Positions 10,615 to 20,677 of a DNA stretch of 64,000 bases are shown here, in pieces; the first letter of the stretch is position 1, and every line of letters starts with the position of its first letter. The stretch spans positions 1 through 64,000 of the forward strand of contig CASFBJ010000016.1 of the NCBI GenBank assembly GCA_949292875.1, in the 5' to 3' direction. Both the position numbers and the translations under genes were made by a program. Origin of the DNA: an uncultured Christensenella sp. GTDB lineage: Bacteria > Bacillota > Clostridia > Christensenellales > UBA1242. A model generated the notes under the pieces. That model ran no database searches and was not told where the DNA came from. It saw only the letters and a list, made by a program, of their open reading frames with translations.

Positions 10615-12441
10615 TTAATCAAGTATTGCTTTTATTCTTCTTATACCGCTACTACTACTTTCTTCCTTTACAATCTTAAAGTGATGAAGTTCTTTAGTAT
10701 TTTTTACATGAGGTCCACCACATATCTCTTTACTTACATTTCCAATAGTATATACTTTTACTTTTTCACCATACTTACTATCAAAAACTCCTAATGCGCC
10801 TTTACTTTTAGCTTCTTCCACACTCATTTCTTCACAAATTACATCTATTTCATCTTTTATTGCATTATTGACAAACTCTTCAACTTTTGCTATTTCTTCA
10901 CTTGTTAGTTTATGGTCGCAATTAAAGTCAAATCTTAGTCTTTCTTCTGTGATATTACTTCCTTTTTGCCTAATATCCTTACTTACAATATTTTGTAGTC
11001 CTGCTTGAAGAAGATGTGTTGCAGTATGCAATCTTGTAGTTTGCTCACTATTATCCACAAGTCCACCTTTAAAACTTCCAGCACTAGTAGTTCTAGCAAG
11101 TTCTTGATGTTCTTGACTAGCTTTTTTAAATCCTTCCATATCTACACTAAATCCACGCTCTTCAGCCATTTCTTTAGTAAACTCTATAGGAAATCCAAAT
11201 GTATCATAAAGTCTAAAAGCAGACTTACCATTTATAATTTTACTAGGTATATCTTGATTATTATTTTTAGCAAATTCTATATGTCTTTCAATTCCAGACA
11301 CAACTTTTTCAAATTCTTTTATACCTTGATTTAAAGTTTTCAAAAATTTTTCTTCTTCTAATGAAAGTTCTTTTAATATCTTTTCTTCATTTGCTTTAAT
11401 TTCAGGATAAAAATCTGCAAAATAATTGCAATAAACTTTAGCAAGTTCTATAAGTTTGCCATCTTGTATGTCTAACTTTTTAGCATGTCTAATCGCCCTT
11501 CTAATAAGTCTACGCAAAACATATCCTGCGCCTGTATTTGATGGAGAAATTCCTTTTTCATCACCTAAAATAACTACTGCGCTTCTTATATGGTCTGCAA
11601 CTATTCTAAAACTTGATGTAAACTCATCGCCTAAGTCATTATATACTTTGCCACTTAGTTCTTCAATCTTTTTCATAGCATCTTCAAATACATCAGTAAC
11701 AAATACACTATTTGCGCCATTTAGCACAACAAGACATCTTTCAACCCCAAATCCTGTATCCACATTTTTTTGCTTTGCTGGAACATAATCTGTATCAGAT
11801 ATCCTATTGTATTGCATATAAACATCATTACCTATTTCCATATATTTACCGCAATCACAAGCAGGCGAACATTCTTCACAACATTTTGGTTTTCCAGTAT
11901 CTAAAAACATTTCACTATCAGGTCCACAAGGTCCTCTATTTAGTTCCCACCAATTTTCACTCTTAGGTAGAAAAAATATTCTATCTTCTGGAACGCCTTG
12001 TTCTTTCCATAGATTATATGTTTCAGTATCTTTTGGCGCATATTCATTACCTTCAAAACAAGTAACAGCTATTTGGTTTTTAGATAATCCTAAATACTCT
12101 GGACTAGTTAAAAATTCGTAACTCCAAGCAACTTTTTCCTTTTTGAAATAGTCCCCCAAACTCCAATTTCCCATCATCTCAAAAAAAGTAAGATGGAAGT
12201 TATCTCCCACTTCATCAATATCACCTGTACGAATGCACTTTTGCACATCTGTAAGTCTTGTACCCATAGCATGCTTTTCGCCCAACAAATAAGGCACTAA
12301 AGGTTGCATTCCTGCAGTAGTAAAAAGACTACTAGGGTCATTCTCTGGCAAAACAGAAGCAGATTTTATAACTTTATGTCCTTTACTTTGATAAAAAGTA
12401 AGCCACATATTTTTCAACTGCTTTGAAGTAAATTTTTTCAT
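10615..12441 (-). CDS. alaS: Alanyl-tRNA synthetase, short form
   Basis: Attaches alanine to tRNA-Ala. The 608-aa product is far shorter than the usual roughly 870-880 aa. The class II catalytic core is intact (SASVLPENDPSSLFTTAGMQ at 27-46 and the R-x-I-x-DH segment FRIVADHIRS). The tRNA-recognition helical part follows, with RRLIRRAIRH and YDTFGFPIEFT. The AlaX-like editing domain is present, with zinc/editing residues H472-x3-H476 (HTATH) and C574-x3-H578 (CGGPH). The chain then stops. Two regions appear absent: the beta-barrel segment with its GGQ-x-GD motif between core and editing domain, and the C-Ala domain. A Cys-rich loop (CCEECSPACDCG) lies in the core. AGGAGA precedes the ATG, 15 bases after dnaB. 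Confidence 0.95.
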   Translation of the reverse strand: MKKFTSKQLKNMWLTFYQSKGHKVIKSASVLPENDPSSLFTTAGMQPLVPYLLGEKHAMGTRLTDVQKCIRTGDIDEVGDNFHLTFFEMMGNWSLGDYFKKEKVAWSYEFLTSPEYLGLSKNQIAVTCFEGNEYAPKDTETYNLWKEQGVPEDRIFFLPKSENWWELNRGPCGPDSEMFLDTGKPKCCEECSPACDCGKYMEIGNDVYMQYNRISDTDYVPAKQKNVDTGFGVERCLVVLNGANSVFVTDVFEDAMKKIEELSGKVYNDLGDEFTSSFRIVADHIRSAVVILGDEKGISPSNTGAGYVLRRLIRRAIRHAKKLDIQDGKLIELAKVYCNYFADFYPEIKANEEKILKELSLEEEKFLKTLNQGIKEFEKVVSGIERHIEFAKNNNQDIPSKIINGKSAFRLYDTFGFPIEFTKEMAEERGFSVDMEGFKKASQEHQELARTTSAGSFKGGLVDNSEQTTRLHTATHLLQAGLQNIVSKDIRQKGSNITEERLRFDFNCDHKLTSEEIAKVEEFVNNAIKDEIDVICEEMSVEEAKSKGALGVFDSKYGEKVKVYTIGNVSKEICGGPHVKNTKELHHFKIVKEESSSSGIRRIKAILD

Positions 12442-16313: not shown

Positions 16314-17231
16314 CTAATTTAGAAACCCTTGAATAATTGTATCTACAGCTTGTTTTTCATCAAGTCCTAAAGTCATAAGTTTTACAACTTGCTCAGGTGC
16401 AAGTTTACCAATCACTGCTTCATGTACAAGGTTCGCACCGCTACACATCGCACTTATTTCTGGAGTTGATGTAACTTTTGCCATATCATCAATTATTGCA
16501 TCACATTCAACATGTCCAAAACACTCTTTTTCTCCAACTAATTTACTTGTAAAAGCTTGTTCACTATTATCTGTTGCAAAACTCCTACTAGTTATATGAC
16601 AAGAACTTTTTTCTCCTTTTAGCCTTACTTCAAAATCTGTTTTACAAACTTGTTTTAGATTAGTACTAATACTTTCTTTTATTATTAAATTAGCATTCTT
16701 TAAAACTTCTGCATAAGTTTTTCTATCGCTATCATCTATACCGTTTAGTTGATGAGTTTCCATAATAAATGAAGAACCTTCTTCCAAGTATATTTTTGTA
16801 TTAGGATTCATTATTTTTTTTGCACTTATATCTCCATAAGCAATATGCTTTTCCACGTAACGAACTTTACTATTTTTACCTACACGGAAAGTATGCTCTC
16901 CACTATGCTCACTAGTTTCTTTTCCAGTACAATGTATACCACAGCCTGCAATTATTAAAATGTCGCAATCATCACCTATATAAAAATCATTATAAACTAT
17001 ATCTTTTAATCCTGATTTAGTTAAAACAACAGGAATGTGTATACTTTGATTTTTTACCCCGCTTTTTACATATATTTCTATACCATCTTTTTCTTTTTGC
17101 GGAACAATATTTATTTCTTTAGTGCTTTTTCTTTTATCAAGCTTACCATTAACTCTTATATTATAAGCTCCTTGCGGAACTTTTTCTAGGTTCGCTATCT
17201 CTTTAAGTATATTTTTCTTGATTTCATCCAT
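16314..17231 (-). CDS. SufB/SufD-like Fe-S scaffold, minimal (SmsB-type)
   Basis: A 305-aa beta-helix protein of the SufB/SufD family, shorter than SufB (about 470) or SufD (about 400). The family C-terminus is clear: TPEISAMCSGANLVHEAVIG, then KLAPEQVVKLMTLGLDEKQA and a final GF. This holds the Cys (in AMCSG) and His (in VHEA) expected at the cluster-assembly site. It follows a SufC-type ATPase gene with no SufD, SufS, SufU or SufE in the window. That matches the two-gene minimal 'SMS' arrangement proposed for anaerobes. The start is the ATG at 17231, with GAGGTG inside the end of the sufC-like gene, so translation is coupled. Confidence 0.85.
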   Translation of the reverse strand: MDEIKKNILKEIANLEKVPQGAYNIRVNGKLDKRKSTKEINIVPQKEKDGIEIYVKSGVKNQSIHIPVVLTKSGLKDIVYNDFYIGDDCDILIIAGCGIHCTGKETSEHSGEHTFRVGKNSKVRYVEKHIAYGDISAKKIMNPNTKIYLEEGSSFIMETHQLNGIDDSDRKTYAEVLKNANLIIKESISTNLKQVCKTDFEVRLKGEKSSCHITSRSFATDNSEQAFTSKLVGEKECFGHVECDAIIDDMAKVTSTPEISAMCSGANLVHEAVIGKLAPEQVVKLMTLGLDEKQAVDTIIQGFLN

Positions 17232-17232
17232 A

Positions 17233-17907
17233 TTATTGCACCTCACAAAGAACTTTCATTGGAGTACCTTGTTTAACAATCTCTCCATCACTCATAACTA
17301 TAAGTCTATCCATAACGCTAATAAGTTTTTCTTGATGAGAAACTATCATAATCATAGGATTCCCTTGAAATCTTAAATTTTGAAAAACTTGAATTAGTTT
17401 ACTAAATGACCACAAATCTATACCTGCTTCAGGTTCATCAAAAATCAAGCATTTACTTTTCTTGAAAAGTATACTTGCTATTTCTAATCTTTTTAGTTCC
17501 CCACCAGACAAATTGCTATCTAATTCTCTATCTAAGTAAGAATTAGGACAAAGACCTAAAGTTGAAAGTACTTTGCATTGCTCTTTTCTATCTAATTTTC
17601 TTCCCGCAGATATCTCAAACAATTTACTTATAGATACACCTTTAAACTTAACAGGTTGCTGAAAAGCAAAACTAATACCTAATTTAGCTCTTTCTGTTAT
17701 ACTTAAATTAGTAATATCTTCGCCATCAAAAAACACTTGTCCACTTGTAGGTTTTTCTATTCCCATCACAACTTTCATTAAAGTAGATTTACCACTTCCG
17801 TTTGCGCCAGTGATAGCAACCATTTCTCCATAATCAATTGAAAGATTAATATTTTTTAATATTTTTTTACCTTCTTTTTCAACACATATATTCTTAAATT
17901 CTAACAT
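17233..17907 (-). CDS. SufC-like ATPase of Fe-S assembly (SmsC-type)
   Basis: A 224-aa soluble ABC ATPase that would power the SufB-like scaffold. It has Walker A GANGSGKST, Q-loop with FAFQQP, the SufC-type signature LSGGELKRLEIA, Walker B CLIFDEPEAGID and the switch His in VSHQEK. EAGID after Walker B is close to the EtDSGLD/EAGID form of SufC-type ATPases and argues against an importer subunit. The frame is open further upstream, but the ATG at 17907 with AAGGAG is the right start. There is no permease next to it; the partner is the overlapping SufB-like gene. Confidence 0.85.
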   Translation of the reverse strand: MLEFKNICVEKEGKKILKNINLSIDYGEMVAITGANGSGKSTLMKVVMGIEKPTSGQVFFDGEDITNLSITERAKLGISFAFQQPVKFKGVSISKLFEISAGRKLDRKEQCKVLSTLGLCPNSYLDRELDSNLSGGELKRLEIASILFKKSKCLIFDEPEAGIDLWSFSKLIQVFQNLRFQGNPMIMIVSHQEKLISVMDRLIVMSDGEIVKQGTPMKVLCEVQ

Positions 17908-17998
17908 AAGGCTCCTTTTATGAAGAATTATAACACGATACATCATTTTTTTCAAGAGTTTATTATACAAGAATTAAAAAAAAGGATATGTATCCTTT

Positions 17999-20140: not shown

Positions 20141-20677
20141 TTAATAATTTTCCTTTCTTATTTCAAAAAAACTTTGTGGGTGGTCGCAAACTGGACAAAC
20201 TTCAGGCGCCTTAGTTCCTACAACTATATGTCCGCAATTTCTGCATTCCCAAACTTTTACTTCAGACTTTTCAAATACTTGCTTAGTTTCAACATTTTGC
20301 AAAAGTTTTCTATATCTTTCTTCGTGCATTTTCTCTATTTCACCAACTGCACGGAACTTTTTAGCAAGTTCAGGGAAACCTTCTTCTTCAGCAGTTTTTG
20401 CAAATCTTTCATACATATCTGTCCATTCGTAATTTTCGCCACTTGCAGCCTCAGTTAAGTTTTGCACTGTATTACCTATTCCTTGCAACTCCTTGAACCA
20501 TATCTTTGCGTGTTCTTTTTCATTATCAGCAGTATTTTGGAATAATGCAGATATTTGTTCGTATCCTTCTTTCTTTGCAACACTTGCAAAATATGTGTAC
20601 TTATTTCTTGCTTGACTTTCACCAGCAAAAGCCTCTAAAAGATTTTTTTCAGTTTGAGTTCCTTTATATTTGTTCAT
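20141..20677 (-). CDS. rbr: Rubrerythrin
   Basis: Peroxide-reducing diiron protein of anaerobes. The 178-aa product has the N-terminal ferritin-like four-helix domain with diiron ligands in [17 protein letters not shown]-type helix 1, EKEHAKIW and [12 protein letters not shown]-terminal rubredoxin domain follows, with CRNCGH and [11 protein letters not shown] supplying the four Cys for one iron. It is monocistronic, with its own terminator and a TATACT -10-like element about 40 bases upstream of the ATG. A ferritin-like relative lies at 62.8 kb. Confidence 0.95.

Follow-up and report, generated by a model that had tools for sequence, protein, structure and literature searches.

The window analysed here, a stretch of 64,000 nucleotides from an uncultured Christensenella sp., encodes a SufC-like ABC ATPase (smsC; positions 17233..17907, reverse strand) and a protein with the SufB/SufD core (smsB; 16314..17231, reverse strand), and all results presented below were obtained by computation. 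The smsC reading frame, with an ATG at 17907 and a stop codon ending at 17233, codes for 224 amino acids, while that of smsB, with an ATG at 17231 and a stop codon ending at 16314, codes for 305 amino acids, in agreement with the lengths and outer coordinates given in a preliminary description of this DNA. The two genes were there taken to overlap; with the 305 amino acid start of smsB, a single base (17232) separates them on the same strand, and an overlap arises only if an upstream GTG at 17246 serves as the smsB start codon (310 amino acids). The Walker A, Walker B, LSGGE signature and H-loop motifs are readable in the SmsC sequence, which matches the Pfam ABC_tran domain (Bitscore: 104.7; cut-off: 25), while SmsB matches the SUFBD_core domain (PF01458; Bitscore: 63.5; cut-off: 27). 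As both scores lie well above the cut-offs, neither match is due to chance.

By their order and strand, the two genes are predicted to form a two-gene operon of the SMS kind. The smsC gene starts 91 bases after gltX and is preceded by a ribosome-binding site read from the sequence (AAAGGAG; 17912..17918, reverse strand) and by a promoter-like site (TTGAAA-N17-TATAAT; 17927..17955, reverse strand), purely a consensus match, with 11/12 positions in agreement. This site is the best-scoring and well placed among ten in the stretch, with 13.0 expected in shuffled sequences. Its own promoter-like site and ribosome-binding site, together with the distance from gltX, suggest that smsC-smsB may be a transcription unit of its own. 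The third gene upstream of smsC (window positions 20141-20677) codes for a rubrerythrin (Bitscore: 261.4), which fits an anaerobe, and a short alanyl-tRNA synthetase of 608 amino acids (NCBIfam PRK01584; Bitscore: 850.6) is encoded at positions 10615-12441.

Affiliation of the SmsC and SmsB proteins

The founding paper on the SMS and MIS systems reportedly appeared in Nature Ecol Evol in 2022. Assignment of the window's pair to the SMS type, as proposed in the preliminary description, is borne out by the single SUFBD protein of the genome, by the tree and by the matches to Methanocaldococcus jannaschii. In a tree of 43 rows, the 29 SmsB proteins form one clade (99/96), the seven SufB proteins another (96/100) and the five SufD proteins a third (100/100), and the phylogenetic check suggested at the outset hence places SmsB apart from canonical SufB and from SufD, which argues for a distinct SmsB lineage. 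M. jannaschii SmsB, which like 4dn7 entered this tree as a partial sequence only, groups with the clostridial SmsB proteins (93/76) but has a very long branch, and the union of clostridial and archaeal SmsB is likely, if not firm. A profile of the clostridial proteins matches M. jannaschii SmsB (e-value: 4e-33), while the best PDB match of the clostridial SmsC profile is M. jannaschii SmsC (9h78_A; Bitscore: 215). AlphaFold models were built from the window's proteins and named relatives, with a mean pLDDT of 88.8 for SmsC and 93.3 for SmsB. The best fold match of the SmsC model is M. jannaschii SmsC (9h7x_A; Z: 30.5; 1.6 Å over 223 residues). The SmsB model has the SUFBD fold, with matches to 4dn7 (Z: 34.3), SufD (Z: 32.2) and M. 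jannaschii SmsB (Z: 31.0), the last of these showing the highest identity among the fold matches (27%). SmsB scores 48.3 bits against the NCBIfam SmsB model NF052511 (cut-off: 650), a model of the kind 'exception' and 445 positions long, which we do not take as defining SMS.

The preliminary description remarked that few bacterial examples are studied; the system is not rare, since at least 581 stretches in a scan of named genomes encode relatives. Among the best 80 of these, most are labelled as Clostridia of various families and one as Bacteroides. The smsC gene lies directly upstream of smsB in 76 of the 80 named loci, somewhat further off in three and is cut away in one, while an IscS or IscU gene beside smsCB was seen in none of the 80, within flanks of at most 6 kb on each side. 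Taken by itself, the window's SMS pair is nothing unusual for Clostridia.

Conserved cysteines and the possible cluster site

The retained Cys and His towards the C-terminus of SmsB had been marked as the likely cluster site. Their conservation holds across 132 aligned SmsB proteins, comprising 52 of the window's order and 80 of named genomes. Cys97 (16941..16943, reverse strand) is a Cys in 132/132 SmsB and in 7/7 SufB proteins of relatives; in the motif C237-x2-H240-x2-C243 (16503..16523, reverse strand), C237 is kept in 122/132, H240 in 130/132 and C243 in 132/132; and His270-Glu271 (16419..16424, reverse strand) is kept in 132/132 at each position. C243 is shared with SufB, while C237 and H240 are mostly SMS-specific. 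On the basis of an alignment with the SufB and SufD proteins of relatives, rather than with those of E. coli itself, we take C97 to occupy the position of E. coli SufB C254, the sulfur-entry Cys, C243 that of E. coli SufB C405, a cluster Cys, and H270 and E271 those of SufD H360 and SufB E434. These roles of the SufB sulfur-entry and cluster Cys and of the SufD His and SufB Glu are named in PMC12584684 and PMC12442378. In the minimal SufB2C2 system of Methanococcus maripaludis and Methanothermococcus, SufB C175, C318, H346 and E347 likely correspond to C97, C243, H270 and E271 (not aligned directly; PMC12584684). The SmsB of Thermococcus kodakarensis SmsB2C2 has conserved Cys, His and Glu residues, as here, but falls into a clade nearer SufB and is longer, judging from its residue numbers (PMC12442378).

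As the cluster site, however, these SmsB residues conflict with the methanogen studies, in which the cluster is held by three tail cysteines of SmsC (PMC12192291; PMC12584684) and the SmsB Cys and His can be changed without harm (PMC12584684). The window's SmsC has no counterpart of any of the three M. jannaschii cluster cysteines (C218, C239 and C242; PMC12192291), nor of the three SufC tail cysteines of M. maripaludis and Methanothermococcus (PMC12584684). Its last residue aligns with M. jannaschii residue 236, before C239. The single Cys in the shortened tail, Cys221 (17245..17247, reverse strand), lies outside the column of the relatives' tail Cys, which in 48 of 52 SmsC relatives falls at a gap in the window's protein. 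We read this as a probable variant of SMS and not as exclusion from it, since zero to five Cys occur in this region across SmsC proteins (PMC12192291). With those SmsC cysteines missing, the SmsB residues are no more than a candidate cluster site in this lineage. Two other SmsC cysteines are well conserved: Cys111 (17575..17577, reverse strand) is a Cys in 46/52 SmsC proteins of the window's order and in 79/79 named loci, and Cys120 (17548..17550, reverse strand) in 50/52 and 79/79, giving 125/131 and 129/131, respectively, for clostridial SmsC overall. Both are absent from M. jannaschii SmsC, which has R and D at these positions, and they may hold or pass on the cluster.

Iron-sulfur genes of the genome and IscU ligand loss in the family

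The window's genome (1.04 Mb in 23 contigs) is 94.8% complete, so that a missed gene is possible. It encodes a single SUFBD_core protein, and neither a SufD nor matches to SufE or to an A-type carrier were found in it, in line with the absence of SufD and SufE first noted around the pair. Among four Aminotran_5 matches, the scores of the three strong ones all stay below the SufS cut-off, while an IscU-like protein falls short of the SufU cut-off (Bitscore: 33.5; cut-off: 92.5), and the canonical set of SufD, SufS and SufE or SufU was not found. A full SUF operon elsewhere in this genome is rejected, with no SufD and no SufE found. The search for sufD, sufS, iscU and nifU that the preliminary description had proposed bore out the lack of sufD and of a SufS at cut-off, but also returned an IscS (390 amino acids) and the IscU-like protein (123 amino acids), encoded by adjoining genes on contig 22, where a gene that we recognise as presumably ThiI and a second desulfurase gene precede them. 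The IscU-like protein matches NifU_N (Bitscore: 88). With ligands numbered as in E. coli IscU, of which we take H105 to be one, it carries T, G, N and D in the C37, C63, H105 and C106 columns, the last two being less certainly aligned in this copy, and all four cluster ligands of E. coli IscU are lost. The neighbouring IscU is for this loss rejected as a scaffold. Contig 8 (L004, 112-1866) furthermore encodes a 249 amino acid NifU-like protein with two Cys motifs beside a 333 amino acid protein with an SGGGTGRT motif, which we assume to be of the GGGtGRT type. This NifU-like protein keeps cysteines and is a possible further Fe-S scaffold; among the matches listed, weak NifU_N matches of its kind occur in many relatives, with and without SMS.

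The loss of IscU ligands was followed in a first set of 99 genomes including the window's own, in which 59 encode a SUFBD protein, called as SMS (52) or full SUF (7) by length and copy number. The window's family contributes 59 of the 99, with 37 SMS genomes, six SUF genomes and 16 with neither. Within it, IscU is intact, retaining all four ligands, in 14 of the 15 IscU-bearing genomes with neither system, in 12/37 SMS genomes and in 1/6 SUF genomes, or 14/15 without SMS or SUF versus 13/43 with either. A draw of 297 genomes from the family (202 with SUFBD; 281 with NifU_N at 1e-7) supplied held-out genomes. Those without SUFBD, identified as the difference between the two lists, comprised all genomes beyond the first set with a completeness of 90% or more and contamination of up to 5% (41, or 40 after G292 was moved to SMS); those with SUFBD comprised the 69 of 159 new genomes that reached 95% completeness under the same limit on contamination. 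Among the latter, IscU was read in 56 SMS genomes, to which G292 was added, and in all six SUF genomes. It is intact in 34/40 genomes with neither system, 11/57 with SMS and 0/6 with SUF (34/40 versus 11/63; Fisher p: 8e-12, kinship ignored). In the four remaining held-out SMS genomes the IscU is degraded in all, and no IscU was found in three SMS genomes (G153, G200 and G306).

The loss is graded, with native-type copies in SMS genomes keeping zero, one, two, three and four ligands in 26, 24, 9, 18 and 17 cases, respectively, and H105 is the missing ligand in 16 of the 18 copies that keep three. The first set includes 15 SMS genomes from other families of the order; eight of them encode an intact IscU, seven lack a full-length match, and a degraded copy was seen in none. 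One genome without SMS or SUF (G085) has a second, very divergent IscU copy without ligands beside an intact one. Another of the same order (G061; estimated 99% complete) yielded no SUFBD_core and no NifU_N match at an e-value of 0.001, and no known scaffold was seen in it.

Some genomes carry a second, intact and imported IscSU, mostly of the CGSA type, the IscS of which forms a separate clade on a branch of 0.64 in the IscS tree. Imports with intact ligands occur in 19 genomes without SMS or SUF, 18 being recognised by the CGSA motif and G159 by where its imported IscS falls in the tree. The native copy had already been read in six of them, four degraded and two intact (G251 and G287); in the other 13, twelve native copies were found, all degraded, and none was found in G130. 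Native copies are thereby degraded in 16 of 18 genomes with an import and no SMS or SUF. With the import counted as a third kind of scaffold beside SMS and full SUF, and degraded defined as the loss of at least one ligand in the native IscU, degradation of the native copy is seen in 108 of the 127 genomes that have a further scaffold, against seven of the 35 in which none was found. These 162 family genomes leave out G130 and G133 (no native copy read), genomes without a found IscU, and G014, which has a short IscS piece and an intact IscU.

Exceptions exist in both directions. In 19 of the 127 genomes the native IscU is still intact; in two of these, G251 and G287, the other scaffold is an import. 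The seven genomes in which the IscU is degraded and no further scaffold turned up (G054, G131, G173, G227, G261, G281 and G291) lie in supported clades of the IscS tree that also hold SMS genomes, and in G009 neither SUFBD nor a full IscU was found; all eight are incomplete assemblies. When 21 suspect genomes were searched again with an improved SmsB profile, smsB came to light in one of them, G292, in which the gene is cut by a contig end. As SUFBD is present in 138 of 190 good family genomes, a handful of loci missed in incomplete assemblies is to be expected, a rough estimate and not proof.

Kinship was accounted for with pairs drawn from a tree of the adjacent IscS in 160 genomes, a single-gene tree made by a quick method and with long branches. 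When SMS or SUF is set against the loss of the IscU site, 21 independent pairs are obtained, of which 10.5 agree in direction and 0.0 disagree (median p: 0.002), these being averages of 200 pairings with never more than one pair against; with the traits exchanged, 10.2 of 18 pairs agree and 0.4 disagree (median p: 0.004; values up to 0.11). When imports are counted, the figures are 10.5 of 19 and 0.0 (median p: 0.002) and, exchanged, 10.2 of 16 and 0.6 (median p: 0.006; values up to 0.09). The link between another scaffold and ligand loss withstands the paired test, the reverse test being weaker.

The IscS side of the locus is well kept. Its catalytic Cys column holds a Cys in 193 of 198 aligned copies; the other five (L083, L104, L116, L117 and L258) may be cut, misaligned or truly changed. 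In 196 of the 198 IscU loci holding an IscS, intact and degraded alike, the latter lies within 200 bases upstream of IscU on the same strand, as iscS and iscU are also adjacent in E. coli (PMC2854127); five IscU loci are without any IscS. The dN/dS ratios, which are rough as many dS values lie near or above 1, range from 0.039 to 0.328 for pairs with at least one ligand lost (18 scorable of 22) and from 0.018 to 0.088 for intact pairs (6 scorable of 8). The ligand-poor IscU is under purifying selection, apparently looser than that on the intact protein. In 76 copies with at most two ligands, the weighted fractions at the four ligands are 0.36, 0.22, 0.19 and 0.19. Several residues that touch IscS in the E. 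coli complex (PMC2854127) are kept in 75-92% of these copies (Y3: 0.76; Y11: 0.80, as F; G38: 0.75; K42: 0.80; G62: 0.92), while others have fallen to 37-52% (V40: 0.38; T60: 0.39; Y61: 0.37, as F; K103: 0.52). Compared with the ligands the contact positions fare better, but they are barely ahead of other core residues, and their retention is a weak sign of a kept partnership with IscS. A stop is flagged inside the IscU match in four family copies (G223, G126, G236 and G215), although the frames read reach the C106 column. Six ligand-poor IscU domains (L118, L119, L362, L363, L364 and L267, in G050, G013, G164, G151, G112 and G220, respectively) lie in longer frames of approximately 270-640 amino acids; a Pfam search of L118 and L119 gave nothing convincing beyond NifU_N.

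Proposed roles of SmsCB and of the ligand-poor IscU

We consider it probable, at about three chances in four, that SmsCB is the working Fe-S scaffold of this organism and receives its sulfur most likely via IscS, and that the ligand-less IscU is a partner or regulator of IscS or a fading relic. This reading builds on the family and order of the two genes, the absence of SufD, SufE and A-type carriers among the proteins found, the link between IscU ligand loss and another scaffold, and the purifying selection on IscU. The encoded proteins would form a complex of the SmsC2B2 type, in which persulfide, most likely from the IscS encoded on the other contig, would be taken up at SmsB Cys97; the cluster would be built on the SmsCB complex, which SmsC would open and close by turning over ATP, and would then be passed on with no A-type carrier involved. 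The IscU encoded next to IscS is very unlikely to act as a scaffold and may instead bind or regulate IscS or be slowly fading. M. jannaschii SmsC2B2 is alike in having two genes, for one ABC ATPase and one SufB-core protein, and in that no SufD and no A-type carrier were found (PMC12192291). The M. jannaschii SMS has also been placed in an E. coli strain without ISC and SUF (PMC12192291). Cysteine desulfurases are encoded in the window's organism, whereas none is identified in M. jannaschii, the SMS of which is able to draw on sulfide with no desulfurase present (PMC12192291); the sulfur donor may hence be something other than IscS. In T. kodakarensis, clusters are reportedly assembled with a cysteine desulfurase and ATP (PMC12442378), the route proposed here.

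Three other explanations bear on this reading. That smsC-smsB is a remnant of a canonical SUF operon is highly improbable: some family members do have full SUF, and the NCBIfam scores of SmsB are all below cut-off, the SufB and SufD models among them, but SmsB forms a clade (99/96) separate from the relatives' SufB and SufD, the nearest match to the window's SmsC is that of M. jannaschii, and order and length are uniform in 76 of the 80 named loci. SMS as a degraded SUF is rejected by the SmsB tree and largely refuted. It is also rather unlikely that SmsCB is dispensable or specialised, with Mrp or the NifU-like protein that accompanies the GGGtGRT-type one as the main scaffold and an only indirect link to IscU decay. 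The protein on contig 8, with its two conserved-looking Cys motifs, would suit such a role, and the SufBC of Methanosarcina acetivorans is reported as not required (PMC10500019), yet the occurrence of such weak NifU_N matches with and without SMS, among the matches listed, gives no account of why IscU decays beside SMS, SUF or a second IscSU.

The third agrees with a working SmsCB scaffold and differs on IscU: the ligand-poor protein may have no function and be decaying toward loss, replaced by SmsCB, SUF or an import, which we hold to be possible, if somewhat doubtful. The tendency of dN/dS to lie higher in degraded than in intact pairs, the three SMS genomes in which no IscU was found, the seven of 15 SMS genomes in other families without a full-length match and the stops flagged in four copies, though the frames continue, all speak for decay. 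Against it, IscU remains directly beside IscS whether intact or not, fold residues and several IscS-contact positions are kept, and dN/dS, rough as the ratios are, is well below 1 in all 18 scorable degraded pairs. Where SmsCB is taken as the scaffold, a tentative extension is that the ligand-less IscU may be a new kind of IscS subunit, released from scaffold duty many times over by SmsCB, SUF or a second IscSU and selected for holding or tuning IscS and for directing persulfide towards SmsCB or other acceptors. If this is true, clostridial SMS would be a variant that uses cysteine sulfur and has a cluster site unlike the archaeal one.

What is new to us is the repeated scaffold swap together with the retained ligand-less IscU. 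In the literature found, we recognised no ligand-less IscU tied to SMS, nor a test of SMS as a real scaffold in bacteria that also carry IscSU. The loss of IscU ligands where SMS or another backup exists suggests that the two-gene machine can work without IscU. The family represents a natural experiment, in which the IscU site is usually degraded beside SMS, SUF or an import, in about ten independent comparisons, and intact in 28 of the 35 genomes in which no other scaffold was found; it makes the sufficiency of a bacterial SMS testable and exposes the ligand-less IscU.
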